A DNA stretch of 53,571 nucleotides from Oryzomonas sp. (GTDB lineage: Bacteria > Desulfobacterota > Desulfuromonadia > Geobacterales > Pseudopelobacteraceae). Shown one piece after another: positions 9,796 to 53,285 of this stretch. The notes beneath the pieces were generated by a model that saw only the letters and a list, made by a program, of their open reading frames with translations, made no database searches and was not told the origin of the DNA. Numbering within the stretch: the stretch's first letter is position 1; every line of letters begins with the position of its first letter. The stretch lies in the NCBI GenBank assembly GCA_031292255.1, contig JARLHN010000004.1:1-53571 (forward strand). The letters run 5' to 3'. A program made the translations under genes and the position numbers.

Positions 9796-10960
9796 TGAGC
9801 AACACCCCGCCCTTCACTACAATCCGGTCGCCCGGATGCAGCCCCTGATCGATGCGGGCGCCGTCGCCCTCTTCGTATCCGGGAATGACCGGGCGCTTGA
9901 CAAACGTCCAGGGCGCAACTTCGACCAGTACAATGGTGCTGTCGTTATCCATGAGAAGAGCTGAATTCGGCACGAACACCGCTGATTTCTGCGGCACGGC
10001 AAAGCTTACGTTGGCGAACATGTTCGGTTTGAATTTGCCGGCCGGATTGGCGAAGGTGATCCGCACCTTGTTGCGGCGCGTGTCCGGTTCCAGTACATCG
10101 CTCACAAAGGCGACGGTGCCGTGAAAGACCTGGCCCGGATAGGCCGGGTATGAGACATCGACGGGCTGGCCCGTGGCAACATGGGCAATGTCGCCCTCCG
10201 GCACGTTCGCCGTGACCCAGACCGAGTTGAGGTTTGCTATGGTCATGAGTGAGGCCGTCGGATCATTGGCGAATGCGCCGGATGCGGTGGTGAGTGCGGT
10301 CACGCTGCCGGCCATCGGTGCCGTCAGGGTCAAAAGGCGCGTTTTGCCTTTGGGTTGGGACGGAACGCCTATCTGCCTGAGCCGTGCTTCGGCCCGGATG
10401 AATTCGGCCCGGGCCTGTGCGGCATCGCTCTCCGCCTGTTCCAGATCCTTGACGGCCCCGGCCCCGGCTTTCTGGACGCCGCGGACGCGCTCCAGTGCCC
10501 GCTCGACATGCTGCAGTGCGTCGCGTGCCTTGTCGTCATCGGCATAAGCCTGCGCCAGGTCGCCAGACTCGATTACGGCCAACTGTTGGCCCTTCGCAAC
10601 GTGATCTCCCAACCGGACTGAAAGCTTGACGACCTTGCCGGCAACCGGCGGCAGGATGTTGACCGTATGGGCGGGATCGGCCTCCACTGCCGCCGGAAAA
10701 AGAAGTGAGTGGGGACTGGTTTTAACGGCCACCTGTTGCACGACCAGTCGAGAACGTAGTGCCGAGCCTTGGGGGATGACTATCTTATCACCTTGATGCG
10801 TAAATGCGGGTGTTGTGGTGTTGGAATCGGCCTGTTCCGCGGCATGGCCGGTTGAACAGGGCACATGTCTCCCCAACCAGACGCCCAACGCGAGAACAAT
10901 CATTACGCCGCCCAGCACGGCGAAGCGTCTTAGCTGTAGATTTCGATTCAATACAGGCAT
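9788..10960 (-). CDS. czcB: RND efflux periplasmic adaptor (CzcB/HlyD family)
   Basis: Membrane-fusion protein that links the RND pump to the outer-membrane channel. It has an N-terminal signal-anchor (about 12-28), a lipoyl-like half at about 95-125 (VAGKVVKLSVRLGDHVAKG), a helical hairpin (about 135-195), the second lipoyl half and a beta-barrel (about 205-330), and a membrane-proximal domain ending GLHPGDRIVVKGG. At 390 residues it has the usual length. No histidine-rich N-terminal extension like that of classical CzcB is seen. The start is supported by AAAGGAG eight bases upstream. It is the first gene of the three-gene efflux operon. Confidence 0.9.
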   Translation of the reverse strand: MPVLNRNLQLRRFAVLGGVMIVLALGVWLGRHVPCSTGHAAEQADSNTTTPAFTHQGDKIVIPQGSALRSRLVVQQVAVKTSPHSLLFPAAVEADPAHTVNILPPVAGKVVKLSVRLGDHVAKGQQLAVIESGDLAQAYADDDKARDALQHVERALERVRGVQKAGAGAVKDLEQAESDAAQARAEFIRAEARLRQIGVPSQPKGKTRLLTLTAPMAGSVTALTTASGAFANDPTASLMTIANLNSVWVTANVPEGDIAHVATGQPVDVSYPAYPGQVFHGTVAFVSDVLEPDTRRNKVRITFANPAGKFKPNMFANVSFAVPQKSAVFVPNSALLMDNDSTIVLVEVAPWTFVKRPVIPGYEEGDGARIDQGLHPGDRIVVKGGVLLND

Positions 10961-11270
10961 GCCATTGCTCCTTTGAATTTCCTTTTATTACTGTAGGGAT
11001 TTGATTGTCGTCCAGGACAAAAGATAATGAAGTTAAATTTCAATATCATTAAACGTGGCGACCTGTCAAATATTTTCGAGACGGGGTGTTAAATCTGTTT
11101 TCAACTCTCATTTGGCAAGTATTGGAGGTCTGGCTTAAAACGGTTGCAGCACGCCACGTCAACGCTTACAATAAAAAAATAAAGGAATGCAGCGCGTGGA
11201 ACCTCCGGCAGGGGCAGTAGATCAGCATGCGTCAGCCTGATGCCATCCCGGATCGTTCATTATGAACGTT
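10961..11270. other. Intergenic region upstream of the efflux operon
   Basis: This 310-bp gap has no credible gene and probably holds the efflux-operon promoter. Two symmetric elements stand out. CGTTCAT-T-ATGAACG (11254-11268) lies just after the response-regulator stop codon and could be a short terminator or an operator. ACGTGGCG (11053-11060) recurs inverted as CGCCACGT (11152-11159). Neither matches an operator I can name. Confidence 0.4.
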
Positions 11271-11876
11271 TCAAGGCTTGATGAGCCGGCCGGATGCCGC
11301 CTTGACGGCCGCTTCGATACGGGTTGCCACACCGAGCTTGCGAACGGCGCTTTCAATGTGAAAGTCGACAGTACGCTTGCTCAGGCCCAAAATATCCGCT
11401 ATTTCGTTGGATGTTTTGCCGCGTGCCGACCATGTCAGGGTTTCAACCTCGCGGTCGTTCAAGTTTGCATGCTGCGCCCAGACTTCGCTGCGCGCGATGC
11501 GTCTGAGTCGCGCGGCTATAATTTCGTTGAGCAGATCGAAATCGATCGGTTTGGTGACGTAGTCGTCAGCTCCGAGTTTTCGGCCTTTGAGCTCATTGTT
11601 GCGGTCGGACAACGCCGTCAGGAATACGAAAGGGATACTCTCAAAGTGCGGGGAGAGGGCGGACAAACGCTCCAGAACCTCAAAACCCGACATGACCGGC
11701 ATGTTGATGTCACACAGCACGAGATCGGGATAGAGCTTCAATATGGCAGCGAAGCCCTCCTGACCATTGGGGGCGATACTGACCTCAAAACCCCTTTCCA
11801 CGAGTTCCTCCGCGATCAGCGCCGCAGTCTCATGATCGTCTTCAATACATAAAATTTTCCTGGGAATATCTGTCAT
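11271..11876 (-). CDS. Response regulator, REC + LuxR-type HTH (NarL/FixJ-like)
   Basis: A 201-residue two-domain transcription factor. The receiver domain (about 7-125) has the acidic pair EDD at 12-14, the phospho-acceptor D56 in LCDINMP, a conserved Thr (FLTA) and Lys (VTKP). A GerE/LuxR helix-turn-helix fills about 135-198, with the signature TSNEIADILGLSKRTVDFHI. The gene is divergent from a histidine kinase and lies upstream of, and in the same direction as, the metal-efflux operon. A role in controlling that operon is plausible from position only. A perfect palindrome lies between it and the kinase. Confidence 0.9.
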   Translation of the reverse strand: MTDIPRKILCIEDDHETAALIAEELVERGFEVSIAPNGQEGFAAILKLYPDLVLCDINMPVMSGFEVLERLSALSPHFESIPFVFLTALSDRNNELKGRKLGADDYVTKPIDFDLLNEIIAARLRRIARSEVWAQHANLNDREVETLTWSARGKTSNEIADILGLSKRTVDFHIESAVRKLGVATRIEAAVKAASGRLIKP

Positions 11877-38984: not shown

Positions 38985-39950
38985 ATGAATCCGCAAGACA
39001 AAATATATGTAGCCGGGCATGGCGGCATGGTCGGTTCTGCCCTCGTGCGCTGCCTGCGCGGTGCAGGCTACACCAATCTGGTCCTTCCTTCGCGGGCAGA
39101 GCTGGATTTGTGCAACCAGGAAGCGGTCAAGGCATTCTTTCACGACGAGCGCCCTGAGTACGTGTTCCTGGCTGCCGCCAAGGTGGGCGGAATCGTTGCC
39201 AACAGCACCCTGCCGGCGCAGTTCATCTACGACAACCTGATGATCCAGAACAACATCGTGCATGCTTCGTGGAGCGTGGGCGTAAAACGGCTTCTGTTCC
39301 TGGGCAGCACCTGCATCTATCCCAAGCTGGCGCCCCAGCCGCTGAAGGAGGAGTACCTCCTGACCGGTCCGCTGGAACCGACCAACGACGCCTATGCCGT
39401 AGCCAAGATCGCCGGCATCACCATGTGTCGCTCCTTCAACCGCCAGTACGGCACCCGCTACCTGGCGGCCATGCCGACCAACCTCTACGGCCCCAACGAC
39501 AATTTCGACCTGACCTCCTCCCACGTCCTGCCGGCCCTGATCCGCAAATTCCACGATGCCGGGGAAAACGGCGCCGCCACAGTCACCGTCTGGGGCAGCG
39601 GCACGCCCCTGCGGGAATTCCTGCACGTGAACGATCTGGCGGACGGTTGCCTGCACCTGGTCAACCTGCCGGATGCGGAGTATGGCCGCCTGCTGGAGGA
39701 CCCGGCGGCTTCGGCCTTGATCAACATCGGCAGCGGCGAGGAGTTGACGATCCGCGACCTGGCCCTACTGGTGAAAAAGGTGGTCGGATTCGAGGGTGAA
39801 CTGGTTTTCGACGCCACCAAGCCCGACGGCACACCGCGCAAGCTCTGCGACGTGTCCCGCATTCATGCCCTCGGCTGGCGGCATCGCATAGCCCTGGAGG
39901 AGGGGCTTGCGGCGACGTATCGATGGTTTCGTGAAAATCGTGAAAGGTGA
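38985..39950 (+). CDS. fcl: GDP-L-fucose synthase
   Basis: Epimerises and reduces GDP-4-keto-6-deoxymannose to GDP-L-fucose with NADPH. The 321-residue short-chain dehydrogenase has the Rossmann motif VAGHGGMVGSALV, FLAAAKVGG, the catalytic S108 (LGSTCIYP), Y137 and K141 (YAVAK), and the family motif NLYGPNDNFD. Length and motifs are full. It opens the polysaccharide cluster; its substrate would come from the Gmd-like enzyme two genes downstream. No GDP-mannose synthesis genes lie in the window. Confidence 0.93.
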   Translation: MNPQDKIYVAGHGGMVGSALVRCLRGAGYTNLVLPSRAELDLCNQEAVKAFFHDERPEYVFLAAAKVGGIVANSTLPAQFIYDNLMIQNNIVHASWSVGVKRLLFLGSTCIYPKLAPQPLKEEYLLTGPLEPTNDAYAVAKIAGITMCRSFNRQYGTRYLAAMPTNLYGPNDNFDLTSSHVLPALIRKFHDAGENGAATVTVWGSGTPLREFLHVNDLADGCLHLVNLPDAEYGRLLEDPAASALINIGSGEELTIRDLALLVKKVVGFEGELVFDATKPDGTPRKLCDVSRIHALGWRHRIALEEGLAATYRWFRENRER

Positions 39951-40001
39951 ATCACATCTCGCCATCCACTTTCCACATTTTCCTCTTGCAATTCCCCTCC
40001 G

Positions 40002-40040
40002 TTTTTCGCTAATGTTCAAAATATGAACAATAACGAAAAA
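40002..40040. promoter_or_regulatory. 39-bp inverted repeat over the start codon of the winged-helix gene
   Basis: Outer arms TTTTTCG and CGAAAAA and inner arms TGTTCA and TGAACA are symmetric around the centre AAATA; only the four-base joins (CTAA, ATAA) match imperfectly. The ATG of the winged-helix regulator (40023) lies inside the centre. Such symmetry over a regulator's own start suggests an autoregulatory operator, or an RNA hairpin hiding the start. Confidence 0.6.
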
Positions 40041-40628
40041 TCCTCGGAATCCTACCGCTCACTCCTGATCCTCTCCGAAATAACCGGCGAAGAGCCGCTC
40101 TCCCAGCGGGAACTCTCGCGACGGCTCGGCGTTGCCGTCGGCCTGGTCAATTCCTACCTTAAAAACCTGGTCGCCAAAGGGTACGTGCGGGTCAAGAACT
40201 TCCCCCGCAACCGCTATGCCTATCTGCTCACCCCTCAGGGATTGGCCGAGAAGAGCCGCCTGGCCTATCAGCACCTGAGTTACTTTACCAGCCTGTACAC
40301 GGCGGCACGCCAGGACTACCTGGACCTGTTCCGCCGCCTGGAGGCCGCCGGCGTGCGGGAGATTGCCTTCTGCGGGGTGGACGAGGTGGCCGAGGTGGCG
40401 TATCTGTCGTTGCAGGAGACCGGCTTGAAATTGGTTGCGGTCATGGATGATACCCGCGCAGGGGACACCTTCTTCGGTGTTCCAGTTGTGTCATTGGCGG
40501 GCGGAGCGCAGAGGTGTCGTGCCCCGGTGATTATATCCTCATTGAAGCGGAAAGATGAACTTACGCGGGAGCTTAGTGATTTGGGTGTAACAGCAGGCAT
40601 GATTTTTGTTGCTGGTACCATGGAGTAG
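40023..40628 (+). CDS. Winged-helix regulator with Rossmann-like C-terminal domain
   Basis: A 201-residue protein. The N-terminal half (about 10-75) is a MarR-like winged helix (LSQRELSRRLGVAVGLVNSYLKNLVAKGYV), of the type found beside exopolysaccharide genes. The C-terminal half (about 105-195) has alternating strands and helices like a nucleotide- or sugar-binding Rossmann fold (EIAFCGVDEVAEVAY, VVAVMDDTRA-like and APVIISSLKR segments). It may sense a sugar nucleotide and control the cluster (inference). It splits fcl from gmd. A 39-bp inverted repeat covers its start, and its 3' end is duplicated in decayed form at 48732-48839. Confidence 0.75.
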   Translation: MNNNEKSSESYRSLLILSEITGEEPLSQRELSRRLGVAVGLVNSYLKNLVAKGYVRVKNFPRNRYAYLLTPQGLAEKSRLAYQHLSYFTSLYTAARQDYLDLFRRLEAAGVREIAFCGVDEVAEVAYLSLQETGLKLVAVMDDTRAGDTFFGVPVVSLAGGAQRCRAPVIISSLKRKDELTRELSDLGVTAGMIFVAGTME

Positions 40629-40683
40629 ATATCGGGCTTTTCCGACTCAAGTACGCCGGTTGTGCAGGGATGGAGGACAATGC

Positions 40684-41640
40684 ATGTCGAAAAAAGCGCT
40701 TATCTGCGGTGTGTCTGGTCAGGATGGCGCATACCTGTCCCGGTTTTTGCTCGGGAAGGATTACGAGGTTCATGGAACCGCGCGAGACGCTCAGATGGCA
40801 TCCTTCTCAAACCTGAGCAGACTGGGTATCCGTGATCATATTGCATATCACTCCATGGCGCTGAACGATTTTCGGAGCGTTCTCCAGGTGTTGTCGAGTG
40901 TGCAACCTGACGAGATTTATAACTTGGCTGGACAAAGTTCAGTGGGGCTTTCTTTTGAACAACCAGTGGAAACACTGGAAAGTATCAGTGTTGGAACCTT
41001 GAATCTTTTAGAGGCGATTCGATTCATGAAGTGCTCGGCCAGGCTTTATAATGCCGGTTCAAGCGAATGTTTTGGCAATGCCGGCGGCCGGCCGGCTGAC
41101 GAGAACACCCCATTTCGCCCGCGAAGCCCTTATGCCGTAGCTAAGGCGACAGCCTTCTGGGAGATTGCAAACTATAGAGAAGCATACAGCCTTTACGCCA
41201 GCACCGGGATACTGTTCAATCATGAATCGCCGTTGCGCCCCGAGCGATTCGTTACCCAGAAAATTGTCAGAAGCGCCTGCCGGATTGCGCAAGGGGCCAA
41301 GGAAAAACTGATACTCGGCAATATTGAAATAGCCAGGGACTGGGGGTGGGCACCCGAGTATGTTGAGGCTATGTGGATGATTCTCCAGCAGGAAAAGGCC
41401 GATGATTTTGTGATTGCAACCGGCAAGACCAATAAACTCGGGGATTTCGTGGCTGAAGTTTTCAGGTGTGTGGGGCTTGACTGGCATGACCACGTTGAAA
41501 GCGATGCATCGCTTTATCGCCCGTCAGAAATTATGGTGAGCATGGCTAATCCTGAAAAATCGGCAAAAATGCTCGGCTGGCAGGCGACATACAGCATGAA
41601 GGATGTCGCCCGAATGATGGTGGAAGAGTTTTTGCTGTAA
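40684..41640 (+). CDS. gmd: GDP-mannose 4,6-dehydratase-like SDR
   Basis: A 318-residue short-chain dehydrogenase matching Gmd closely: ALICGVSGQDGAYLSRFLL, QPDEIYNLAGQSSVGLSFE, then GILFNHESPLRPERFVTQKI, LGNIEIARDWGWAPEYV and MWMILQQEKADDFVIATG. The catalytic Tyr and Lys are in YAVAKATAFW; the usual Ser-Thr-Ser-Glu block reads GSSECFG. It should make GDP-4-keto-6-deoxymannose from GDP-mannose. It is about 50 residues shorter than typical Gmd, with deletions near the NADP loop region (TARDAQMASFSNL). The frame extends back to 40606, but the ATG at 40684 has GGAGG seven bases upstream. The product feeds Fcl or another reductase. Confidence 0.85.
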   Translation: MSKKALICGVSGQDGAYLSRFLLGKDYEVHGTARDAQMASFSNLSRLGIRDHIAYHSMALNDFRSVLQVLSSVQPDEIYNLAGQSSVGLSFEQPVETLESISVGTLNLLEAIRFMKCSARLYNAGSSECFGNAGGRPADENTPFRPRSPYAVAKATAFWEIANYREAYSLYASTGILFNHESPLRPERFVTQKIVRSACRIAQGAKEKLILGNIEIARDWGWAPEYVEAMWMILQQEKADDFVIATGKTNKLGDFVAEVFRCVGLDWHDHVESDASLYRPSEIMVSMANPEKSAKMLGWQATYSMKDVARMMVEEFLL

Positions 41641-41685: not shown

Positions 41686-42459
41686 ATGAAAGTTGTCATA
41701 CTTGCGGGGGGCTTCGGAACTCGTATCAGCGAAGAGTCGCACCTGAAACCAAAACCGATGATCGAGATAGGTGGTCGTCCTATTCTCTGGCACATCATGA
41801 AGATTTACTCCCATTTCGGTTTCAGTGATTTCGTCATCTGCCTGGGGTACAAGGGATATTGCATCAAAGAATATTTTGCGCATTATTTCCTGCACGAGTC
41901 GGATGTCACCTTCGATTTCCGGGAGGGCAATCAACGGATTGTCCACAGTCATAGTGCGGAACCATGGCGGGTGACCCTGGTCGATACCGGTCAGGACACC
42001 TTGACGGGTGGCAGGGTAAAGCGGATAGCCCATTACTTGGAGGGGCAGCCGTTCATGCTCACCTATGGCGATGGCGTCGCAAATGTGAATATACGTGAGT
42101 TGGTCGAGTTTCACCGTAAAAGCGGGAGGCTGGCCACCGTCACCACCACCCAGCCGAGCGGCAAGTTCGGGGCGCTTAATCTGAGTGATTCCGATCAGGT
42201 AGTTAGCTTTCAGGAGAAGCCGAAGGGGGATGGCGGTTGGATCAATGCAGGCTTCTTTGTCATGCAGCCGGAAGCTGTCGGCTATATCAAAGACGATTCA
42301 ACGATATTGGAGAGGGAACCCTTGGAACAACTGGCCGGCAAAGGAGAGTTGATGGCTTACAAACATCACGGATTTTGGCAACCAATGGATACCATGCGGG
42401 ACAAGAACAACCTGGATGAGATGTGGAAGAGCGGCGAAGCCCCTTGGAAGGTTTGGTGA
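41686..42459 (+). CDS. rfbF: Glucose-1-phosphate cytidylyltransferase
   Basis: Makes CDP-glucose from glucose-1-phosphate and CTP, the first step to CDP-6-deoxy and 3,6-dideoxy sugars. The 257-residue enzyme starts MKVVILAGGFGTRISEES with the nucleotide-binding loop, then KPKPMIEIGGRPILWHIM and LTYGDGVANVN with the metal-binding Asp. The ATG at 41686 with GGAGG seven bases upstream is chosen over an upstream in-frame ATG at 41644. The stop overlaps the rfbG start (TGATG), so rfbF, rfbG and rfbH are co-expressed. Confidence 0.95.
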   Translation: MKVVILAGGFGTRISEESHLKPKPMIEIGGRPILWHIMKIYSHFGFSDFVICLGYKGYCIKEYFAHYFLHESDVTFDFREGNQRIVHSHSAEPWRVTLVDTGQDTLTGGRVKRIAHYLEGQPFMLTYGDGVANVNIRELVEFHRKSGRLATVTTTQPSGKFGALNLSDSDQVVSFQEKPKGDGGWINAGFFVMQPEAVGYIKDDSTILEREPLEQLAGKGELMAYKHHGFWQPMDTMRDKNNLDEMWKSGEAPWKVW

Positions 42460-43532
42460 TGGAGCGTTCATTCTGGCATAACAGGAGGGTCTTTGTAACG
42501 GGCCATACCGGATTCAAAGGATCATGGCTGTGCCTCTTGCTCCACTCCATGGGCGCGAAGATGACCGGCTATGCCCTGGAACCGCCGACCTGCCCCAGTC
42601 TTTTCGAAAGCGGCAAGCTCGGCGAATTGGTACACTCCGTCATTGCCGATGTCCGGGACTTGGGCCGGATCAAGGCTGAAATGGCCGCTGCTGCTCCGGA
42701 GATCGTCATCCACATGGCCGCCCAGCCGCTGGTGCGGGAGTCCTACCGCAATCCGGTGGAAACCTACACCGTCAACGTCGTCGGAACGGTCAACCTCCTG
42801 GAAGCGGTGCGGGAATGTCCAAGCGTCAGGGCGGTTGTCAACGTGACCACCGACAAGTGCTATGAAAACCGGGAATGGATCTGGGGTTATCGTGAGAATG
42901 AACCGCTGGGCGGGTATGACCCCTATTCCAGCAGCAAGGCCTGTTCGGAACTGGTTACGGCGGCCTACCGAACGTCGTTTTTCAACCCGGAGAGGTATGA
43001 CGTGCACCGTGTCGGCATCGCATCCGCCCGCGCCGGAAATGTTATCGGCGGTGGCGACTGGGCTGCTGAACGGCTGATACCCGACAGTGTGAGGGCTCTG
43101 TTGCAGGGGATTCCTATTCCGGTCCGAAACCCTCACGCAATCCGCCCCTGGCAGCATGTATTGGAACCGTTGAGCGGTTATCTGGTCCTGGCGCGAAAAC
43201 TGTACCAGGAAGGTCCCGAATATGGCGGGGCCTGGAATTTCGGCCCGCGTGACGATGACGCAAAACCGGTGGAATGGATTGCCAGGGCCGTCACCACCCG
43301 ATGGGGCGGTAACTCAAGCTACATCGTCGATCAGGGGGAGCATCCCCACGAAGCCCATTACCTCAAGCTGGACTGCTCAAAAGCGATGGCCGGCCTTGGA
43401 TGGCGTCCACGCTGGAGCCTGTCCCGGGCGCTTGACAGTATCGTTGATTGGACGAGGGTCTACCAAAGCGAGGGTGATGTTCGTTCGTTATGCCTGCAGC
43501 AAATTGTGGAATATCTGGGAACCGAGGGATAG
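42459..43532 (+). CDS. rfbG: CDP-glucose 4,6-dehydratase
   Basis: Converts CDP-glucose to CDP-4-keto-6-deoxyglucose with bound NAD. The 357-residue short-chain dehydrogenase has RVFVTGHTGFKGSWLCLLL, HMAAQPLVRESYRNPVETY, NVTTDKCYENREW with the active-site Thr-Asp, and YDPYSSSKACSELV with the catalytic Tyr and Lys. ARAGNVIGGGDWA and IRPWQHVLEPLSGYL are family signatures. Its start overlaps the rfbF stop by one base; an upstream in-frame ATG (42423) lies inside rfbF and is rejected. rfbH follows after 6 bases. Confidence 0.96.
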   Translation: MERSFWHNRRVFVTGHTGFKGSWLCLLLHSMGAKMTGYALEPPTCPSLFESGKLGELVHSVIADVRDLGRIKAEMAAAAPEIVIHMAAQPLVRESYRNPVETYTVNVVGTVNLLEAVRECPSVRAVVNVTTDKCYENREWIWGYRENEPLGGYDPYSSSKACSELVTAAYRTSFFNPERYDVHRVGIASARAGNVIGGGDWAAERLIPDSVRALLQGIPIPVRNPHAIRPWQHVLEPLSGYLVLARKLYQEGPEYGGAWNFGPRDDDAKPVEWIARAVTTRWGGNSSYIVDQGEHPHEAHYLKLDCSKAMAGLGWRPRWSLSRALDSIVDWTRVYQSEGDVRSLCLQQIVEYLGTEG

Positions 43533-43538
43533 GAAAGC

Positions 43539-44897
43539 ATGCCGAATACCAGCGAAACGGACAAGAAACTGCGCGAGGAGGTTGTACAGGCCACCCTCCG
43601 CTACTACGAATTCAAGCATAAGGTGAAGAAGCCCTTTGTGCCCGGAGAACGGATATCGTACGCCGCCAGGGTGTTCGATGAACAGGAGATGGCCAACCTG
43701 ATCGATTCCTCCCTGGATTTCTGGTTGACCACCGGCCGTTACGCGGAGCGGTTCGAACGGGAATTTGCCGAGTTTCTCGGCGTACAACACTGTTCTTTGA
43801 CCAATTCAGGCTCTTCCGCGAATCTCCTGGCCTTCATGGCGCTTACCTCCCCCAAGCTGGCTGAAAGAAGGATTCGCAAGGGCGACGAGGTCATCACCGT
43901 TGCCGCCGGATTTCCCACCACCGTTGCCCCGATCATCCAGTACGGCGCTGTTCCGGTGTTCGTCGATGTCCGGCTTCCGACGTACAATATCGACGTCGCC
44001 CAATTGGATGCAGCCCTCTCCGACAGGACCAAGGCGGTCATGGTAGCCCACACCCTCGGCAACCCTTTCGACCTCGCAGCCGTAAAACAGTTCTGTGACC
44101 GGCATAACCTCTGGCTCGTCGAGGACAATTGCGACGCCCTTGGTTCGCGGTACTGTTTGAACGGCAAATGGCGCTTCACCGGAACCATCGGCCACCTGGG
44201 AACATCAAGCTTCTATCCGCCCCATCACATGACCATGGGGGAGGGGGGCGCCGTCTACACGAACGACACGACCCTCAAGCGTCTCGTGGAGTCGTTCCGC
44301 GACTGGGGGCGCGACTGCTGGTGCCCGTCGGGGCGCGACAATACCTGCGGCAACCGCTTTACCCAGCAGTTCGGCGAACTCCCCTACGGCTACGATCACA
44401 AGTACGTGTACTCCCACTTCGGGTACAACCTGAAAGTGACCGACATGCAGGCTGCCGTCGGCTGCGCCCAGCTGGAAAAGCTGCCCGGCTTCATTGCCGC
44501 CCGTCAACGCAACTGGCAGCTCTTGCGCGACGGTCTGGCCGACTTGGGTGACCGCTTCATCCTGCCGGAACCGACAGAAAACTCCGACCCCTCCTGGTTC
44601 GGCTTCCTTCTCACGGTACGTGAAGATGCCGGTTTCAGCCGTGAGCAGGTCGTCGCCCACCTGGAGCGCAAGGGGATTCAGACCCGCATGCTGTTTGCCG
44701 GCAACCTGATCAAGCACCCCTGTTTCGACGAGATGCGCAAGGAAGGCACAGGCTACCGCATCGTCGGCAGCCTGGACGACACCGACCGGATCATGCGGGA
44801 TACCTTTTGGGTCGGTGTTTATCCCGGCATGACGGATGAAATGCTGGACTACATGATCGAGACGATCAAAGACTTTGTCCTGCAAACCCGCGGATGA
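43539..44897 (+). CDS. rfbH: CDP-4-keto-6-deoxyglucose-3-dehydrase (E1)
   Basis: Pyridoxamine-phosphate and [2Fe-2S] enzyme that removes the 3-hydroxyl of CDP-4-keto-6-deoxyglucose. The 452-residue protein has an aminotransferase fold in which the cofactor lysine is replaced by histidine ([14 protein letters not shown], about 229-230), the E1 hallmark. C260, C262 and C270 ([11 protein letters not shown]) fit the C-x-C-x7-C part of the E1 iron-sulphur motif; C198 or C206 may be the fourth ligand. A dedicated reductase (E3) is not in the window. An AGGAA site precedes the ATG. Confidence 0.95.
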
Positions 44898-44938
44898 AAT
44901 TTTGTTGAGGAGTCAACTACATTTAACCGGAGAACCTA

Positions 44939-46000
44939 TTGAAAAGTGAATGCAAAATATGCGGCTTTCCAATGTCGAATCTATTTAGGCTGAATAACAG
45001 CATAAAAACCCAGACTGTTTGCAAAACATTACAGGAGGCCCAACAGGTTCCAGTCGTTGGTATGAATGTCCAGTATTGCAGCCGCTGTGACTTCTATCAG
45101 ATCGATTCCGTGGATTTTGACCATTATGATGATGAAGAATATTATCTCACGACAGAGATCAGCGAGACCCAGCGATCCTATCAGCAATGGTTTCTTGAGC
45201 ATGTTGAACAGTATCTTGCTTCCCCTGTAGCCGAAATAGGGCCGGGTGACGGTTTTTTGGGAAAGCTGCTGGCTCCTCGTTATGATTATGTTGGATATGA
45301 ACCGGCTCGTAAGAGTTTTGATGAGTGCAGGAGAAAGAATTTACAGGTAATTAATGGCAATTTCACCGGATCTTCCAAGAAGTATTCGGCAATCATCGGC
45401 AGGCAGGTGTTGGAGCACATAGAAGATTTACAGAAATTTCTGCATGATGTTCTGTCATCTTTAACCGAAGACGGCGTGGCGATATTTGAGGTGCCAAACA
45501 TAGACAAGGCGAGAAAGAATAACCGTATTGTAGATTTTTGTCCGGAGCATGTGAACTACTTTACCCTGTCGTCCCTTGCCCTATTGTTCGCCGCAAATGG
45601 ATTTTCCCCGTGTGAGATCATAAAAACATACAATGATGAATACCTTTTAATAATAGCATGCAGGCATCCGCAATTCAGCCTTGTCCACTCAAGCGTAGAT
45701 TTCAGCTCCATGGTCTTTTGGGGGGCAGGATCTCGTGGAGTCAGCCTCTGCCATGCCATTGGCGCTAAACCGCGATATTTCGTCGATACGGACTGCAACA
45801 AGTTTGGTAAATATATTCCTTCCACAACGGTTGAAATTAAAGCGCCGGCGTTCTTGTATGAAGATTCTTCATGCGAGGCAGTGGTTATTACGTCCATTTT
45901 TTATTTTGAGGAAGTGCTTCAAACTCTTCAGGCCAATGGCTACAAAGGGAAAATTTATCGATTGAACGAAAGGAATGAACTGGTCCTGTGCAATATCTAA
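44939..46000 (+). CDS. Three-domain sugar C-methyltransferase-like protein
   Basis: A 353-residue SAM-dependent enzyme with the architecture of nucleotide-sugar C-methyltransferases of the TylC3 kind. It has an N-terminal zinc-binding domain (CKICGF near 5 and YCSRCDF near 46), a central SAM domain with motif I AEIGPGDGFLG and RQVLEHIEDLQKFL, and a C-terminal domain with VFWGAGSRGVSL and FVDTDCNKFGKYIP. It starts with TTG, supported by GGAGA six bases upstream. Its end overlaps the transketolase subunit by 13 bases. Base composition is more AT-rich than rfbFGH. By context it may methylate a CDP-keto-dideoxyhexose, or the family fold may have been recruited for another step. Confidence 0.8.
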   Translation: MKSECKICGFPMSNLFRLNNSIKTQTVCKTLQEAQQVPVVGMNVQYCSRCDFYQIDSVDFDHYDDEEYYLTTEISETQRSYQQWFLEHVEQYLASPVAEIGPGDGFLGKLLAPRYDYVGYEPARKSFDECRRKNLQVINGNFTGSSKKYSAIIGRQVLEHIEDLQKFLHDVLSSLTEDGVAIFEVPNIDKARKNNRIVDFCPEHVNYFTLSSLALLFAANGFSPCEIIKTYNDEYLLIIACRHPQFSLVHSSVDFSSMVFWGAGSRGVSLCHAIGAKPRYFVDTDCNKFGKYIPSTTVEIKAPAFLYEDSSCEAVVITSIFYFEEVLQTLQANGYKGKIYRLNERNELVLCNI

Positions 46001-46779
46001 AAAACATTAAAAAATCAATACTTCATATGGCTCATTACTCCAAAGCTTCACATGTTGGGAGCTGCCTTTCCATTGCGGAAATCCTGTATACCCTCTATTT
46101 CAGGATTCTGCGGGTCGATCCGGGCAATCCGAACTTGGCTAACCGCGATATTTTCATCCTGAGCAAGGGCCATGGTAGTGCCGCCCTCTATGCTACGCTG
46201 GCCGAACGGGGCTTTTATCCGAAGGCGTATCTTGATAAGTACTACATTGATGGCGGGTTGCTGCCAGGGCATCTGGACAAAGAAGCGGTGCCGGGTGTTG
46301 AAGTTTCGAGCGGTTCTTTAGGACACGGCCTGTCCATAGGTATCGGGATGGCAATTGCCAGGCGGACGGCGCTTGATTCGGGCAGAGTTTTCGTCTTGCT
46401 TGGAGATGGAGAGTGCAACGAAGGGTCGGTGTGGGAGGCCGCCATGCTGGCTGGAACCCTAAAACTGGAAAACCTCACGGCAATAGTGGATTTCAACAAA
46501 CTCCAGAGTTTCGGCAAGACCAATGAGGTAATCGACCAGAGGAACATGGCGGCGCGCTGGGCGGCTTTTGGTTGGGATGCTCATGACGTCGAAGGTCATG
46601 ACGTTGCCGCCCTTGAACAGGTTTTTTCCGCACCCCAGCAAGGCCCAAAGATGATAGTTGCTCACACTGTAAAGGGCAAGAGCGTTTCGTTCATGGAGGA
46701 CAGGCTGGAATGGCATTACAAATCACCCAACGACGAGCAATATGTTCAGGCAATCAAGGAACTGGAGGGTAAGAAATGA
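45988..46779 (+). CDS. Transketolase-like protein, N-terminal (TPP-binding) subunit
   Basis: A 263-residue protein equal to the first third of transketolase. It has a HxxxxSHVGSCLSIAEILYTLYF start, LSKGHGSAALYA with catalytic-type His, GSLGHGLSIGIGMAIA, and the thiamine-diphosphate motif GDGECNEGSVWEAAML ending in DFNKLQSFG. The start is GTG inside the end of the methyltransferase gene, and it overlaps the C-terminal subunit by 4 bases (ATGA). Split transketolases occur in archaea and in some sugar clusters. Its place in an rfbFGH operon suggests transfer of a two-carbon ketol unit to a nucleotide sugar rather than pentose-phosphate metabolism. Confidence 0.88.
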   Translation: MQYLKNIKKSILHMAHYSKASHVGSCLSIAEILYTLYFRILRVDPGNPNLANRDIFILSKGHGSAALYATLAERGFYPKAYLDKYYIDGGLLPGHLDKEAVPGVEVSSGSLGHGLSIGIGMAIARRTALDSGRVFVLLGDGECNEGSVWEAAMLAGTLKLENLTAIVDFNKLQSFGKTNEVIDQRNMAARWAAFGWDAHDVEGHDVAALEQVFSAPQQGPKMIVAHTVKGKSVSFMEDRLEWHYKSPNDEQYVQAIKELEGKK

Positions 46780-47687
46780 GAAACACATTCGTAGATTGCC
46801 TGATCAAGCGGGCCCGTTATGACGACCGTATCTTCCTGATAACCCCGGATGTGGGGTTTTCGGTGCTGGAGAGGTTTGCGGATGAGTTTCCTGATCGATA
46901 CCTCAATGTCGGCATTGCCGAGCAAAATGCGGTAGGTGTTGCCGCTGGTTTGGCCCTGTCTGGAAAGCGTCCCTATGTGTACAGCATGGTGCCGTTTGTG
47001 ACCATGCGCTGTTTCGAGCAGGTGCGCGTTGATGTCGCCTATATGAAGACGAATGTCGTGCTGGCGGGCATAGGTGGTGGCCTGACCTATGGCCCGGCAG
47101 GCGCGACCCATCACGCCATTGAAGATATTGCAATCATGAGGGCGCTGCCGAACATGACAATCTGCGCACCCGGCGATCCCATTGAGGCTCGGGCGCTTAT
47201 GGAGCAGAGTTTTGATCACGATGGCCCCATCTATATAAGGCTCGGCAGAAACGGGGAACCGGCCATTCACGGTCCTGACGTCAAAATTGAAATAGGCTCT
47301 TCTGTCAAGATTGCCGATGGAGACGATCTGGCTTTGATCACAACAGGAAACACCCTGGAACTTGCCAGTCGCGTGATTCAAGCCATGCAGGACCGGGGCC
47401 GCAAGGCAACACTGATCTCGATGCCGACGATCAAGCCATTTGACTGCGATGTAATCATTTCGCTGTTGGACAGGGGGATGCCGATTGTTACCCTGGAGGA
47501 GCATACGGTTATTGGCGGATTGGGAAGTGCCGTCGCGGAAATCATAGCGGAGTATGGCAAAGGGGTTAAATTCAGACGTATTGGGCTTCCGGACGAGTAC
47601 AGTCATACCGTTGGCAGCCAGGAATATTTGCGGAATCATTTTGGCCTGAACCTTGAAAGGATTCTTGAAATTATTGGAGGGATTTGA
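46776..47687 (+). CDS. Transketolase-like protein, C-terminal subunit
   Basis: A 303-residue partner of the upstream subunit, containing the pyrimidine-binding and C-terminal domains. LNVGIAEQNAVGVAAGLALSG carries the Glu that activates thiamine diphosphate; PYVYSMVPFVTMRCFEQVR, AGATHHAIEDIAIMRALPN and VTLEEHTVIGGLGSAVAEI are family blocks. Together with the upstream gene it would form an alpha2-beta2 enzyme with the cofactor at the interface. The next gene begins two bases after its stop. It resembles 1-deoxyxylulose-5-phosphate synthase and transketolase halves; the substrate is unknown. Confidence 0.88.
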   Translation: MRNTFVDCLIKRARYDDRIFLITPDVGFSVLERFADEFPDRYLNVGIAEQNAVGVAAGLALSGKRPYVYSMVPFVTMRCFEQVRVDVAYMKTNVVLAGIGGGLTYGPAGATHHAIEDIAIMRALPNMTICAPGDPIEARALMEQSFDHDGPIYIRLGRNGEPAIHGPDVKIEIGSSVKIADGDDLALITTGNTLELASRVIQAMQDRGRKATLISMPTIKPFDCDVIISLLDRGMPIVTLEEHTVIGGLGSAVAEIIAEYGKGVKFRRIGLPDEYSHTVGSQEYLRNHFGLNLERILEIIGGI

Positions 47688-47688
47688 C

Positions 47689-48627
47689 ATGCCGCCCGTG
47701 CGCATTGCCATTCTTGGCGCCACCAGTCATATCGCAAAGGGGCTCATCGCGGCCTGGGCGGGGCGCGAGGAAAGAGAATTGGTTCTCTACGCCCGTTCTC
47801 CAGATCGCGTGCGGGAGTTTATTTCGCTCATCGGCTGCAAAGATCCGGTCATCCTGCCTGTTGAGGACTTTGGCCGCATACGGTGCGATGTGATTGTCAA
47901 TTGCATCGGGATAGCCGACCCAGGCAAACTCAGCAATGAAATGGCAACAATTTTTACCCTGACAGAGACATGGGACCGCCGGGTGATGGATTATGTTTCC
48001 ACCTGCCCTGATGCGCTTTACATCAATCTGAGCAGCGGCGCAATATATGGAAGCGAGTTCAGCCAACCGGTGAATGAAGCCTCACCTGCCGTTTTTCCAG
48101 TGAACGCCATGACGGCATCCGAATTTTACGGGATTGCCAAATTGCACGCCGAGGCACGGCACCGCGCCGCATCCGGACTGAACATCGTTGACCTGCGAAT
48201 TTTTAGCTATTTCAGCAGGTTTATCGACCCCGCAACCCGCTTTCTGATGACCGACATCATATTGGCTCTGAAAAGTGGAAACGAAATGCTCACAACGACC
48301 AATAATATCGTCCGGGACTACGTAAACCCCGATGATCTGGTATCGCTTATGGATCTGCTGGTAGCGCGAAAAAGCTTGAATGGGGTTTACGATGTATATA
48401 GTCGTAAGCCGGTAACAAAGTTTGAGATACTTGAGAGCTTCGCCGCGGATTTCGGGCTCCATTTTCGTGTAATCGAAGATGCTAAACCTGTTACAGCCAC
48501 AGGTACAAAAGATCATTATTATTCTCTCAATTACCGTGCGGCGGAACTTGGTTATCAGCCGCGTCATAGTTCCCTTGACTCTCTTCGCCGTGAAACCATA
48601 TTTTTGCAGCAGGGCTTTCAGCAATGA
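47689..48627 (+). CDS. NAD-dependent epimerase/reductase (SDR) of the CDP-sugar operon
   Basis: A 312-residue extended short-chain dehydrogenase with Rossmann motif AILGATSHIAKGLI, NCIGIADPGK, catalytic-type Ser in INLSSGAIYG and YGIAK as the Tyr-Lys pair, plus RDYVNPDDLVSLMDLL. The frame extends upstream to 47653, but the ATG at 47689 with GGAGG eight bases before it lies right after the transketolase stop. It probably reduces a keto group on the sugar or on a side chain added by the transketolase pair (inference). It is the last gene of the tightly packed rfbF-to-SDR operon. Confidence 0.85.
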   Translation: MPPVRIAILGATSHIAKGLIAAWAGREERELVLYARSPDRVREFISLIGCKDPVILPVEDFGRIRCDVIVNCIGIADPGKLSNEMATIFTLTETWDRRVMDYVSTCPDALYINLSSGAIYGSEFSQPVNEASPAVFPVNAMTASEFYGIAKLHAEARHRAASGLNIVDLRIFSYFSRFIDPATRFLMTDIILALKSGNEMLTTTNNIVRDYVNPDDLVSLMDLLVARKSLNGVYDVYSRKPVTKFEILESFAADFGLHFRVIEDAKPVTATGTKDHYYSLNYRAAELGYQPRHSSLDSLRRETIFLQQGFQQ

Positions 48628-48878: not shown

Positions 48879-50459
48879 ATGAAAATACTTCTTGTATCGA
48901 TAAAATCTGATATGTTTCCTGTCGGAATGGCCTATATTTCGGCAGCAATTAAAGCATCGAACCATGAAGTCGATTGCTTTGTTTATGATAATTATCAGGA
49001 TTTTATTAATAGGCTCGATACAGAAAAGTATGATTTTGTGGCAACTGGTGGACTCTCATCACAATACAAAATAATTAAAAACATATCCGATATTGCATGT
49101 GGCAAAAATATAAAATTAATTATAGGTGGTGGAATAATAACTTCGGAACCGGAGCTTATGAGCAGAGCTTTAAAAGCTGATTATTCTGTTATAGGTGAGG
49201 GTGAGATAACAATAGTCGAGCTGTTGGATTGTATTGAGAATGGTTCAGACATCTCTACGGTTGATGGTATTGGGTATTTTGATGAAGATAAATATATTAT
49301 TAATTCCAATAGAGCGGCAAATTCAGATCTTGATTTACTACCATATCCTGATTATCAAAGTTTCGGATACGAAGACGCGCTAAATGCAGCCAGATCTTCT
49401 GATATTTATTATTTTGACTTGTTTGATCATCCTAGAGAATACCCAATAGTCACATCCAGATCATGTCCGTTTAAATGCACTTTTTGCTATCATCCTCTCG
49501 GCGATACATACAGACAGAGATCTATTGATTCCGTTATGGATGAACTTAAAATAGTAATTCCTAAATTTAGGATCAACATCATATCTATATACGATGAATT
49601 GTTTTCACATGATGAGAAAAGAGTTGACGACTTTTGTTCACAACTTACCAGTTATCTATCAACAATACCATGGGAAGTAAAATGGTTTTGCCAGATGAAA
49701 GCATCTGGTTTGAAATCTGAAATGCTCGATAAAATGAAAAATTCAGGCTGTTACATGGTAAGTTATGGATTTGAAAGTTACAGCCCAACAATATTGAAGA
49801 GCATGAAAAAAGGTATTACCCCGCAACAAATAGACAATGCAATTAACGTTACATTGGATAAAAACATTTCAATACAAGCCAACTTTATTTTTGGAGACAG
49901 GCTTGAAACAATGGAGACCGCGCTAGAAACTCTTAATTATTGGAAAACTCGTCCCGAAGCCGGCATTCTCCTAGGGTTTATCATCCCATGCCCAAATAGC
50001 GAAATTTATCAATATTGCATTGAAAAGGGCATAATTAAGGATAGATTCGACTTTATCGTAAATCATATGTTCGACATTGTTAATATTACATCGATGAGCA
50101 ATTCAGACTTTATTGAGTTAAAAGAATTAGTCAACAGCCATTCGGTGAGTTATGGTGTCACATCGATACCACGTAAAGTGACAGAATCTTGTGTGATTGT
50201 TAAGTGTCCGCATTGTAGCGAGACTATAACATATGGTAACTATGTTATAGATACATCTAACTTCTACAGGATGATATATTGCAGAAAATGCAGGAAAAGA
50301 TTTTTCATCCTCAATAGGTTGGAAAAAATAAAAAGAGTTTTATTTCTCAACCATATAGAAAAAATAAAACAATACTTGAAGCCTATTACAAGGCATCGCC
50401 TTGTTTTAAAACTTAGAAAGACAGTTTCGACAGCACTATTTAAGCCTAATAAACATTAA
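48879..50459 (+). CDS. B12-binding-domain radical SAM protein
   Basis: A 526-residue enzyme with an N-terminal cobalamin-binding-like Rossmann domain (about 1-130, PVGMAYISAAIKASNHEVDCF, VIGEGEITIVELL). The radical SAM domain has the [4Fe-4S] motif C196-x3-C200-x2-C203 (CPFKCTFCYH). The C-terminal tail contains a zinc-ribbon-like pair C443/C446 (CPHC) and C468/C471 (CRKC), then a basic end. The first domain lacks a clear DxHxxG motif, as in many members. Related enzymes methylate or rearrange unreactive carbons in lipid and sugar pathways; the product here is unknown. The gene is strikingly AT-rich compared with its neighbours, a sign of transfer. The following 50460-50706 gap is AT-rich and empty. 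Confidence 0.85.
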   Translation: MKILLVSIKSDMFPVGMAYISAAIKASNHEVDCFVYDNYQDFINRLDTEKYDFVATGGLSSQYKIIKNISDIACGKNIKLIIGGGIITSEPELMSRALKADYSVIGEGEITIVELLDCIENGSDISTVDGIGYFDEDKYIINSNRAANSDLDLLPYPDYQSFGYEDALNAARSSDIYYFDLFDHPREYPIVTSRSCPFKCTFCYHPLGDTYRQRSIDSVMDELKIVIPKFRINIISIYDELFSHDEKRVDDFCSQLTSYLSTIPWEVKWFCQMKASGLKSEMLDKMKNSGCYMVSYGFESYSPTILKSMKKGITPQQIDNAINVTLDKNISIQANFIFGDRLETMETALETLNYWKTRPEAGILLGFIIPCPNSEIYQYCIEKGIIKDRFDFIVNHMFDIVNITSMSNSDFIELKELVNSHSVSYGVTSIPRKVTESCVIVKCPHCSETITYGNYVIDTSNFYRMIYCRKCRKRFFILNRLEKIKRVLFLNHIEKIKQYLKPITRHRLVLKLRKTVSTALFKPNKH

Positions 50460-50706
50460 CTATCTAAATGACTTCAAAACCATCCCCTCCTTTAATAACA
50501 TATGATTTATTTGGATATGATTTTGCGCTTAAAATATCCCGGCTTCTAGGAATGGGAGCTGAGAGAGTCAGCTTTCGTATACCTTCACCACGTACATATT
50601 GATTGAGTTTGCTTAACATTTGTAGGCTCAACCCATTAGTTTTTTAGATTTTTAACTATTAAAGAATGAAGTATACATTAACCTCTCGATGAGGAGTTCA
50701 GAAATT

Positions 50707-51891
50707 ATGAGTATAGACAGTAAAATTAAAAATGGTTTGAAAAGACTGATAAGATTCAATAACAACAGGCTGTCAATGAATCTCTTATTTGATTTAAAAA
50801 ATAGAGAGTTTGCATTTGATAGCAACAATAATACCACCGAATGGGTCGATAAGGCATTTGCGCCAAGAAAAACCAGATTAACCGAAGACACTACAATATT
50901 AAATCGCATCTATGAAGCATACAATAAGGCAAAAGAAATACAGAAAACAGCAAAGTCACATTATCAAGTAAGCAATGAATGGCTACCTATTTATAACTCC
51001 AGTTTAAAAGAAGTAATGGCAGCCTTTGAGAAAAAGGACCTTGAAAAACTAGGCATACTTTATCAAAATTTCATGCGGAATCAGTGTAGTGCGGGATTGG
51101 TCGGACTGCCTGTCGATATGGACAAATGTTACTTCAGCGGCAAGATCAGCAATAAAGATAAAAAATTATATCTCTATGATAGCTTGAATAGGTTTTGGTT
51201 GTGGAAAAATTTATCCAGTAAAGCGTTCGATATACAATCGCTGGATTCTCCGGATATCGGCAATCCGTTTGGTTACTATATCGACGGGCATTTTATAAAA
51301 ACTGGTTCAGATTATCAGCATTATTATGCTGCTGCAATTGATAGATTGACAAAGAGTGATGAACATCGCGTTATTGTAGAATTGGGTGGTGGATACGGCG
51401 GAATGGCGTACTATTTAATTCGTGATTGTAAGAGATCAACTTACATAGATTTTGATTTGCCAGAAAATTTGGCACTGACTACCTACTATTTACTTAATGC
51501 ATTTCCAGATAAAAAAATATTGTTATTTGGCGAAGAAGACTTAAGTGATTGCAAATTAACCGATTATGATATTGTACTTATGCCAAATTATGAAATAGAT
51601 AAAATGACAGATCTTTGCTCTGATTTGGTATTTAATTCATATAGTTTGGCAGAAATGTCTCACGAAACAATATCCAATTATGTTGCTGTTTTTAACAGGA
51701 TTGCCAAAAACTATATTTTTCACGTGAACCATACTCGTAATTCTCTCGTGTCGGCAGACGATTTTGGCATAGATCAGGATAAATTCGATTTGATTTACAA
51801 AATACCGGCACTATGGAATGCAGGTAGAAACCTTTACATGGACGAGTATGAGTATTTGTATAAGCGCAGTGAATGTGAGAAAAAATATTGA
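50707..51891 (+). CDS. Putative sugar O-methyltransferase
   Basis: A 394-residue protein of the putative sugar O-methyltransferase type found in surface-polysaccharide clusters. The SAM site is in IVELGGGYGGMAYYLI, followed by YIDFDLPENLALTTYYLLNAFP and VFNSYSLAEMSHETISNYV, which are typical of that family. The N-terminal 200 residues are helical and specific to it. The ATG at 50707 has GAGGAG ten bases upstream; an in-frame ATG at 50689 precedes that ribosome site and is rejected. Like the previous gene it is AT-rich. The flippase gene begins right after the stop. Confidence 0.75.
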   Translation: MSIDSKIKNGLKRLIRFNNNRLSMNLLFDLKNREFAFDSNNNTTEWVDKAFAPRKTRLTEDTTILNRIYEAYNKAKEIQKTAKSHYQVSNEWLPIYNSSLKEVMAAFEKKDLEKLGILYQNFMRNQCSAGLVGLPVDMDKCYFSGKISNKDKKLYLYDSLNRFWLWKNLSSKAFDIQSLDSPDIGNPFGYYIDGHFIKTGSDYQHYYAAAIDRLTKSDEHRVIVELGGGYGGMAYYLIRDCKRSTYIDFDLPENLALTTYYLLNAFPDKKILLFGEEDLSDCKLTDYDIVLMPNYEIDKMTDLCSDLVFNSYSLAEMSHETISNYVAVFNRIAKNYIFHVNHTRNSLVSADDFGIDQDKFDLIYKIPALWNAGRNLYMDEYEYLYKRSECEKKY

Positions 51892-51893
51892 AT

Positions 51894-53285
51894 ATGACGC
51901 TGCTGGTTAAATTGCTCAGATTAGCAGGAGTTGACCGTGCCGTAGGTTATGGCGTGCTTGCACGATTATGGCAGGTTGTGGCGGGACCTGTTTCCATGAT
52001 TGTCATTGCCACGAATCTCTCTCGTGAACAACAAGGCTTCTATTTCACTTTTAACAGTATTGTTGCGTTACAGTTGTTTTTTGAATTGGGCCTGACCGGT
52101 GTGATCTCTACTTTTGTCAGCCATGAATTTGTTGACCTCGCTTGGGAGAATCGCGGCCGTATTAGCGGCGATTCCAGATCGCTTCAAAGACTGGAGGACA
52201 TCCTCGCCAAGGCGACCCTCTGGTTCTTCGTTGCCTCGATTCTTTTATTCGTTGTTCTGGTTCCGACGGGCTTGTTGTTTTTTGGCCAGGCGAAGCATAC
52301 AGGTGTTGATTTTTCCTGGAGGCTTCCCTGGATACTGGTGGTTGCAGGTACGTCTTGCAACCTCATGGTTACCCCTTTCTTTTCTGTTCTGATGGGGAGC
52401 GGTGACGTCGCCAACGTTAACAAACGAGAGATGTTGGGGGCTATAGTGGGGCCAATACTGTCATGGACGGTGCTGTTGCTCCATGGCGGACTTTTTGCGG
52501 CACCGGCGGTCGCTTTCGGCAATATGCTGGTATCCTGGCTGTACCTGGCCCGGCAGAAACCGGAACTGTTGAAAAAAGCCTGGGACTGCGTAAAAAATAT
52601 ACGTCGGGAGAAACATCAGGAGGCGCGGGTTTCGTGGAGGGGGGAAATATGGCCCCTGCAATGGAAGATCGCGTTGTCATGGATGTCAGGTTACTTCCTG
52701 TTTCAATTGTTCAATCCGATACTCTTTCATTACCATGGGCCGGTTGTGGCGGGTCAGATGGGGATGACCCTCAGTGCAACCAATGCGCTCATTGGGGTAT
52801 GCATAACCTGGATAAGCGCGAAAGGCCCTGAATTCGGAAAGCTGATCGCTCAACGGGAGTGGCGGCGGCTCGATGAATTGTTTAACAGGGTTTTACTGCA
52901 AACGTCGGTAATTTCCGTTATTGGAGCTCTCGGCGGATGGAGCATCATATGGTTTTTGCAAGGACATTACAAAATTGGTGCACGCTTTATTCCGGCGTCT
53001 GACGCAGCATTTTTGCTGGCTGCGGTTTGTATAGTAGTAATTGTTTTCGGACTCGCCACCTACCTGCGAGCGCATAAGCAGGAGCCATTTATGGTCTTGT
53101 CGATAAGTAGCGCTCTGATTCAGGGAAGCGCGATATGGGTAACGGGGAAATACTTTTCAAGCCGTGGAGTGTCGATGGCGTATTTTGCCGTCAGTCTATT
53201 CTTTGTATTGCCTTATGCCGTCATTGTTTGGCGACGATGCCGCAGGATGTGGCATTCAGAGGGTACGGGAGTACTTACTAAATGA
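51894..53285 (+). CDS. Wzx-like polysaccharide flippase
   Basis: A 463-residue multi-span membrane protein with about twelve hydrophobic segments. It begins with a short amphipathic stretch and VAGPVSMIVIATNLSREQQG, a feature of the MATE/PST exporter superfamily to which O-antigen flippases belong. It would move lipid-linked sugar repeat units across the inner membrane. The frame also offers a TTG at 51888 overlapping the upstream stop (TTGA); the ATG at 51894 is preferred. GC content returns to the level of the rfb genes. It overlaps the next gene by 4 bases (ATGA). Confidence 0.75.
   Translation: MTLLVKLLRLAGVDRAVGYGVLARLWQVVAGPVSMIVIATNLSREQQGFYFTFNSIVALQLFFELGLTGVISTFVSHEFVDLAWENRGRISGDSRSLQRLEDILAKATLWFFVASILLFVVLVPTGLLFFGQAKHTGVDFSWRLPWILVVAGTSCNLMVTPFFSVLMGSGDVANVNKREMLGAIVGPILSWTVLLLHGGLFAAPAVAFGNMLVSWLYLARQKPELLKKAWDCVKNIRREKHQEARVSWRGEIWPLQWKIALSWMSGYFLFQLFNPILFHYHGPVVAGQMGMTLSATNALIGVCITWISAKGPEFGKLIAQREWRRLDELFNRVLLQTSVISVIGALGGWSIIWFLQGHYKIGARFIPASDAAFLLAAVCIVVIVFGLATYLRAHKQEPFMVLSISSALIQGSAIWVTGKYFSSRGVSMAYFAVSLFFVLPYAVIVWRRCRRMWHSEGTGVLTK

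Follow-up and report, generated by a model that had tools for sequence, protein, structure and literature searches.

A split transketolase linked to CDP-3,6-dideoxyhexose genes in Oryzomonas and Paenibacillaceae suggests a little-explored route to two-carbon sugar branches

We analysed a 53,571-base stretch of DNA from Oryzomonas sp. (assembly GCA_031292255.1, contig JARLHN010000004.1), referred to here as the window, in which an operon at positions 41686–48627 places the CDP-3,6-dideoxyhexose genes rfbF, rfbG and rfbH beside a transketolase (TK) encoded in two pieces. Seven open frames lie in this region, all on the + strand, and specify RfbF, RfbG, RfbH, a C-methyltransferase-like protein, the two TK halves (TK-N and TK-C) and a short-chain dehydrogenase/reductase (SDR). 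With starts as called, the successive intergenic gaps are -37, +6, +41, -13, -4 and -35 bases; neighbours overlap by 4–37 bases or stand 6–41 bases apart, in keeping with the tight packing reported in an earlier note on this DNA. RfbF, a glucose-1-phosphate cytidylyltransferase (41686–42459, with ATG at 41686), scores 434.6 bits against TIGR02623 (cut-off 300.25). RfbG, a CDP-glucose 4,6-dehydratase (42423–43532), scores 494.9 bits against TIGR02622 (cut-off 278.45) and is the single match at E ≤ 1e-80 across the source assembly, and RfbH, a CDP-4-keto-6-deoxyglucose 3-dehydrase (43539–44897), scores 760.5 bits against NF011936 (cut-off 423). All three exceed the NCBIfam equivalog cut-offs, which identifies the CDP-3,6-dideoxyhexose pathway, and their frames are open throughout, as the earlier note had held in calling them complete.

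The two TK genes were likewise correctly recognized. TK-N (45988–46779), the thiamine diphosphate (ThDP)-binding half, matches PDB 6yak at E 9.1e-73, and its score with Transketolase_N (137 bits, versus 25 bits with E1_dh) places the pair outside the two-protein alpha-keto-acid dehydrogenase type represented by AviB1/B2 and KbDH. TK-C (46776–47687), the pyrimidine-binding and C-terminal half, matches Transket_pyr (119 bits), Transketolase_C (84 bits) and PDB 6yaj (E 2.1e-60). The division into an N chain (PP) and a C chain (Pyr + TKC) is that of a split-gene TK, and the best PDB match for both chains is a characterised enzyme with the same two-chain architecture, the split TK of Carboxydothermus hydrogenoformans (6yaj/6yak). 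The SDR-type reductase (47689–48627; Epimerase PF01370, 49 bits) more likely begins at ATG 47689, which lies one base past the stop codon of TK-C and is preceded by a GGAGG; the start used in the earlier note, TTG 47653, is less likely. The Tyr and Lys of its YxxxK motif are invariant over 7 aligned SDRs. The substrate cannot be named from sequence, because phmmer with the window SDR found no PDB match at E 0.001, a two-row profile gave a best E of 0.068, and a seven-row profile returned general epimerase/reductase folds. A single-sequence AlphaFold2 model of the SDR was set aside (mean pLDDT 35).

A survey of genomes for rfbFGH beside split TKs, which the earlier note had proposed, found that the linkage recurs in the Paenibacillaceae and in a second genome of the source order (G144). 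That genome supplied the one close relative of TK-C beyond the window among 277 genomes of the class, at 74% identity, and there the genes run RfbF-RfbG-RfbH-TKN-TKC-SDR, all on the same strand. In Paenibacillus chibensis, where TK-C is 64% identical to that of the window, the order is RfbH-RfbF-RfbG-SDR-TKN-TKC. Across 344 Paenibacillaceae genomes, with at most 5 or 6 candidates scored per genome, TK-C matched at E ≤ 1e-52 in 104 places (93 genomes), with an empty interval between 13 strong matches (E ≤ 8.4e-104) and the other 91, termed weak (E ≥ 1.3e-78). One locus was examined for each strong TK (L001 and L082–L093), and RfbF and RfbG adjoin TK-N/TK-C in 13 of 13. The corresponding list of RfbG matches (E ≤ 1e-80, under the same limit on candidates) has 137 entries from 125 of these genomes; one of them lies 2.5–5.6 kb from the strong TK in 12 cases, and the remaining locus (G374, L087) contains a short RfbG frame, at 237 bits, that is not on the list. 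In contrast, no listed RfbG occurs within 100 kb of any weak TK; 30 of the 91 weak TKs sit in genomes that have one, the nearest on the same contig being 103 kb away (G339). The grouping of the split TK with rfbF and rfbG is not chance, because all 13 close TK-C relatives adjoin these genes versus 0 of 91 weaker split TKs (one-sided Fisher P 8e-17, although related genomes are not independent).

The TK-C sequences of the 15 linked loci (13 from Paenibacillaceae, the window and G144) form one clade with a Shimodaira–Hasegawa-like approximate likelihood ratio (SH-aLRT) support of 99, in a tree of 62 rows from which columns 461–473 and a long-branched Streptomyces row (L002) were left out. When L002 was kept (63 rows) it fell within the linked clade (100/99). 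The 63-row tree omits three loci (L102, L025 and L040) that each repeat another row's TK. Homology searches place an SDR in 14 of the 15 linked loci, and a TylF-type methyltransferase adjoins TK-C in 8.

The Paenibacillaceae loci are of two types: six carry RfbH, and seven carry a C-methyltransferase in its place (CMT-type). RfbH takes off the C3 hydroxyl of the sugar, and a 3-C-methyltransferase leaves it. Two of the CMT-type C-methyltransferases were scanned; that of L084 has all three Pfam domains of the family above cut-off, and that of P. cellulosilyticus has Methyltransf_23 and Methyltransf_14. The SDR and TK-N are a single frame of 584–658 residues in six of the seven CMT-type loci. The 635-residue frame of P. 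cellulosilyticus (NZ_CP054609.1, HUB94_RS00340) has Pfam Epimerase at 19–247 and Transketolase_N at 383–612; this operon (L102) sits between glycosyltransferase genes on a plasmid of 509 kb.

The additional C-methyltransferase-like protein of the window (44939–46000) is divergent. Methyltransf_23 matches at 61 bits (cut-off 27), Methyltransf_14 reaches 19.5 bits (cut-off 23.5), Methyltransf_13 gives no match at E 1e-3, and CxxC pairs are visible by eye. The earlier description of a three-domain enzyme thus holds for Methyltransf_23 only, and the protein falls short of an NDP-sugar 3-C-methyltransferase defined by three domains above cut-off. Its best PDB match is D-mycarose 3-C-methyltransferase (4rv9, E 2.1e-5). 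One other of the eight RfbH-type loci, L091, carries a relative (36% over 129 residues), directly upstream of TK-N, and no match was found in G144 or in five of the six Paenibacillaceae RfbH-type loci. The protein is accessory and lies outside the conserved core, which makes it a weaker part of the earlier interpretation.

Active-site residues were compared over 65 TK-C rows and are numbered as in E. coli K-12 TktA. The window TK-N keeps the equivalents of His26, His66, His100, the GDG motif, Asn185 and His261, as do the other linked TK-Ns apart from the broken N-half frame of L091, which is without His26 and His66. The window TK-C keeps Arg358, Ser385, Glu411, His473 and Arg520, with Gly for His461 and Ala for Asp469. 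All linked rows keep Arg358, Ser385, Glu411 and His473, and all have Gly at 461 and either Ala or Gln at 469. The His461 and Asp469 pair of housekeeping (pentose-phosphate) TKs, absent from the window TK-C, is kept in E. coli TktA and in six split TKs (L028, L035, L045, L109, L111 and L113). The C. hydrogenoformans C-half, in the stretch THAGLTVGEDGASH, also has His and Asp where the window TK-C has Gly and Ala. Work on E. coli TK (PMC5073344) described Asp469 as an obstacle to bulky ring acceptors; replacing it made room for them and gave activity on one such acceptor. According to PMC7661550, the residue at position 100 is Phe in the pyruvate-using 1-deoxy-D-xylulose-5-phosphate synthase (DXPS or DXS); because linked TK-Ns keep His100, the donor is more likely a hydroxylated ketol than pyruvate.

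Residue 469 follows the type of locus without exception: all 8 RfbH-type systems have Ala there, and all 7 CMT-type systems have Gln. Among the 566 TK-N and TK-C columns of the window, the strict discriminators between the two types are 367 and 469, and eight further columns, 382 included, have disjoint residues. A small residue for a deoxygenated C3 and Gln for a hydroxylated C3 would be expected if the enzyme recognized the CDP-4-keto sugar directly. We regard the pattern as suggestive only, because the tree requires no more than one change of type. The idea that the Ala/Gln switch arose more than once was rejected, since a single change is enough on the trees (support 57/35).

Taken together, these observations are consistent with the following pathway. 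RfbF, RfbG and RfbH would make CDP-4-keto-3,6-dideoxy-D-glucose, a conversion established for these families, with gene identity coming from this analysis. The two-chain TK would then move a two-carbon ketol unit (hydroxyacetyl) from a donor onto the C4 ketone. This would leave a tertiary alcohol and a ketone in the new side chain, and the SDR would reduce that ketone to a 1,2-dihydroxyethyl branch, in line with the reduction proposed to follow YerE in the yersiniose pathway. The product, a 3,6-dideoxy-4-C-(dihydroxyethyl)hexose in the form of a CDP-octose, would enter a surface polysaccharide, and the C-methyltransferase may add an optional methyl. We think it reasonably probable that the TK and SDR build a C4-branched octose from CDP-4-keto-3,6-dideoxyglucose. 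For the wider statement, that linked TKs act on 3-deoxy (RfbH) or 3-C-methyl CDP-4-keto sugars with residue 469 matched to the C3 substituent and an SDR, in some cases fused, reducing the hydroxyacetyl branch, we would put the chances as about even. The branching proposal of the earlier note has gained from the recurrence with rfbFG, the SDR::TK-N fusion, the single clade, the loss of His461 and Asp469 and the tracking of C3 by residue 469, and it is still something we infer.

Several observations weigh against this pathway. In a phylum sample of 395 genomes, 11 others have TK-C at E ≤ 1e-78 (42–48% identity); no RfbF or RfbG match above 71 bits was found in the eight of these loci examined (L094–L101, two of them < 9 kb) or in nine class loci (L048–L056), where linked loci give at least 203 bits. 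Of the 141 genomes of the order, 71 have RfbG, and two of these, the window's and G144, have a linked TK. Since the distant TKs are unlinked and linked TKs occur in few RfbG genomes, the association with rfbFG is confined to one TK clade, and most rfbFG genomes lack a linked TK. The window SDR is only 21–25% identical to five aligned unfused Paenibacillaceae SDRs, and SDR queries match nothing in L091, where several genes are split over frames and only visual inspection suggests an SDR-like frame. Loss of His461 and Asp469 is common among unlinked split TKs, and it was rejected as a marker of a CDP-sugar acceptor for that reason. With Arg358, Ser385 and Arg/Lys520 kept, the linked enzymes may still bind phosphate. 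Of the ten discriminating columns, two (382 and 469) fall at substrate-site positions, a modest excess (hypergeometric P 0.033) over 17 positions that were compiled from PMC7661550, PMC5073344 and PMC10787763 after the columns had been seen, and the Ala/Gln switch may represent a single event.

Retention of the phosphate-pocket residues Arg358, Ser385 and Arg520 would also fit a TK that makes a phosphorylated precursor of another polysaccharide sugar, with the SDR acting as a C4 reductase to give paratose, abequose or a relative, and several other split-TK clades do lie in apparent surface-sugar clusters (by eye) without rfbFG. That model leaves unaccounted for the linkage to rfbF and rfbG, the fusion of SDR to TK-N, the absence of His461 and Asp469 and the correspondence of residue 469 with C3 chemistry. 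The source genome also has a separate full-length TK-like frame: because a 680-residue frame matches both TK halves and two further frames (639 and 626 residues) are DXS-like by eye, the split TK is probably not the sole transketolase there. We consider the precursor model unlikely. A rather unlikely alternative, for which we would allow slightly more, is that the pair does form a branch but with an acetyl group (from pyruvate) or a longer unit, or at another carbon, giving a yersiniose-like or different sugar. The window C-methyltransferase, which has no assigned target, could belong to such a scheme, and YerE and enzymes of the alpha-keto-acid dehydrogenase type use pyruvate, with ErwE using longer keto acids, according to PMC12247030. 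Against it stand His100, kept in all linked TK-N rows where DXPS has Phe (PMC7661550), and the transfer of hydroxyacetyl proposed for TKs in miharamycin and amipurimycin synthesis (PMC12247030).

Surface-polysaccharide loci recombine, and shuffling could in principle have assembled independent genes that share no joint pathway; a genome of the same family as the source (G227) has rfbFGH ~5 kb from an unrelated split TK. This explanation has very little in its favour once it is set against a core that recurs in the Paenibacillaceae group and in the source order, with a fusion and a single clade, and with no exception among the 13 Paenibacillaceae loci.

The proposed C4 branching by TK and SDR has parallels in known systems. 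As described in PMC12247030, CDP-4-keto-3,6-dideoxyglucose is also the acceptor for YerE (yersiniose A, Yersinia pseudotuberculosis) and for ErwE (erwiniose), which likewise form a ThDP-dependent C–C bond at the keto carbon for a surface polysaccharide; both belong to the decarboxylase superfamily, whereas the window enzyme is a two-gene TK. Section 2.3 of the same review gives miharamycin and amipurimycin as cases in which hydroxyacetyl transfer to a keto sugar is likewise proposed for a two-gene TK, lists 13 further candidates, all from Streptomycetes, and states that as of 2025 none of the proposed keto-sugar-branching TKs had been characterised in vitro. The miharamycin and amipurimycin enzymes belong to antibiotic clusters; those described here are set apart by a CDP-4-keto sugar, rfbFG operons and an SDR partner or fusion. 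The novelty is smaller than in the earlier note, because keto-sugar branching by split TKs had already been proposed (PMC12247030), and the operon is a variant on that idea. Two-protein ThDP enzymes, AviB1/AviB2 (avilamycin) and Pau11/Pau12 (paulomycin), have also been proposed to form C4 branches (PMC4753412); these are of the dehydrogenase type and add an acetyl branch from pyruvate (PMC12247030). In paulomycin synthesis a separate ketoreductase, Pau7, tested in vitro, reduces the branch as we propose for the SDR (PMC4753412), although Pau7 is an aldo-keto reductase. The C. hydrogenoformans split TK has been tested on aldehydes (PMC7661550).

No title or abstract opening listed in our open-access searches describes this operon, although a prior description is possible; for a dihydroxyethyl-branched polysaccharide sugar nothing relevant was found by title, a weak negative given the many carbohydrate journals outside the search. 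The rfbFG-linked set of split TK and SDR suggests a little-explored route to a two-carbon sugar branch. These operons bear on whether transketolases accept keto sugars: they supply defined TK candidates, a fused partner and a predicted acceptor, for whose enzymatic preparation RfbF, RfbG and RfbH can be used. Ala or Gln at position 469 provides a one-residue, assayable hypothesis of specificity, and the operons point to undescribed bacterial surface sugars.

Split TKs also occur in other settings. G227 was rejected as a further case of the linkage, its TK lying in a different clade from the linked TKs (63-row tree) and having Arg at position 26 and Ile at 100. In its locus (L103, 11457–18999), rfbFGH precedes three frames: one resembling an aminotransferase by eye, one of the radical SAM type, and a ThDP enzyme of the decarboxylase family, which matches TPP_enzyme_N/M/C and is cut by the locus end. 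A YerE-type branch pathway is therefore likely to exist within the family of the source genome. A TK of the same clade as that of G227 lies ~10 kb from rfbFGH in G261, and L103–L107 share the Arg/Ile changes. L051 (G226) has two tandem split-TK pairs at 6744–11358, one with Arg and Ile at these positions. Members of the Arg26/Ile100 clade may have a different chemistry or be non-catalytic. Further split-TK clades in the class (L048, L050, L052, L055, L056 and others) occur in clusters that lack rfbFG and that include, by eye, radical SAM frames and frames resembling methyltransferases. For the L002 TK (Streptomyces spinosus, 7159–8891) we make no claim: it has a long branch and changes at both His100 and His461, and no RfbF, RfbG or RfbH match was found inside the 16.8-kb locus, where its neighbours include asparagine-synthase-like and acyl-CoA-dehydrogenase-like genes (by eye).

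The window is an entire contig that ends within a polysaccharide cluster, from an assembly that is 88.46% complete. It also encodes an outer-membrane efflux protein (PF02321), which suggests a Gram-negative source. The earlier statement that the usual finishing genes are missing holds for the 30 window frames scanned and does not extend beyond the contig end. Among those 30 frames, Pfam searches revealed no E3 (RfbI-type) reductase, the search being confined to the window, and no YerE-like single-chain ThDP enzyme with TPP_enzyme_N/M/C; elsewhere in the assembly a 579-residue frame gives one 33% match to the YerE-like class. Just downstream of the SDR, at 48879–50459, lies a gene for a B12-binding radical SAM protein, for which a second C-methylation of the sugar is a possible role. 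L005 (Desulfovibrio, 343 bits) and L051 (339 bits) also have homologues of it close to split TK pairs. A NanM-type putative sugar O-methyltransferase follows at 50689–51891 (TIGR04371, 91.7 bits, cut-off 44), and then a membrane-protein frame at 51888–53285 that is flippase-like by eye. Directly upstream of rfbF, positions 38985–41640 hold an Epimerase-family gene (GDP-fucose-synthase-like by eye), a helix-turn-helix regulator (HTH_24/MarR_2) and a GMD-like gene (TIGR01472, 343 bits, below the cut-off of 415).

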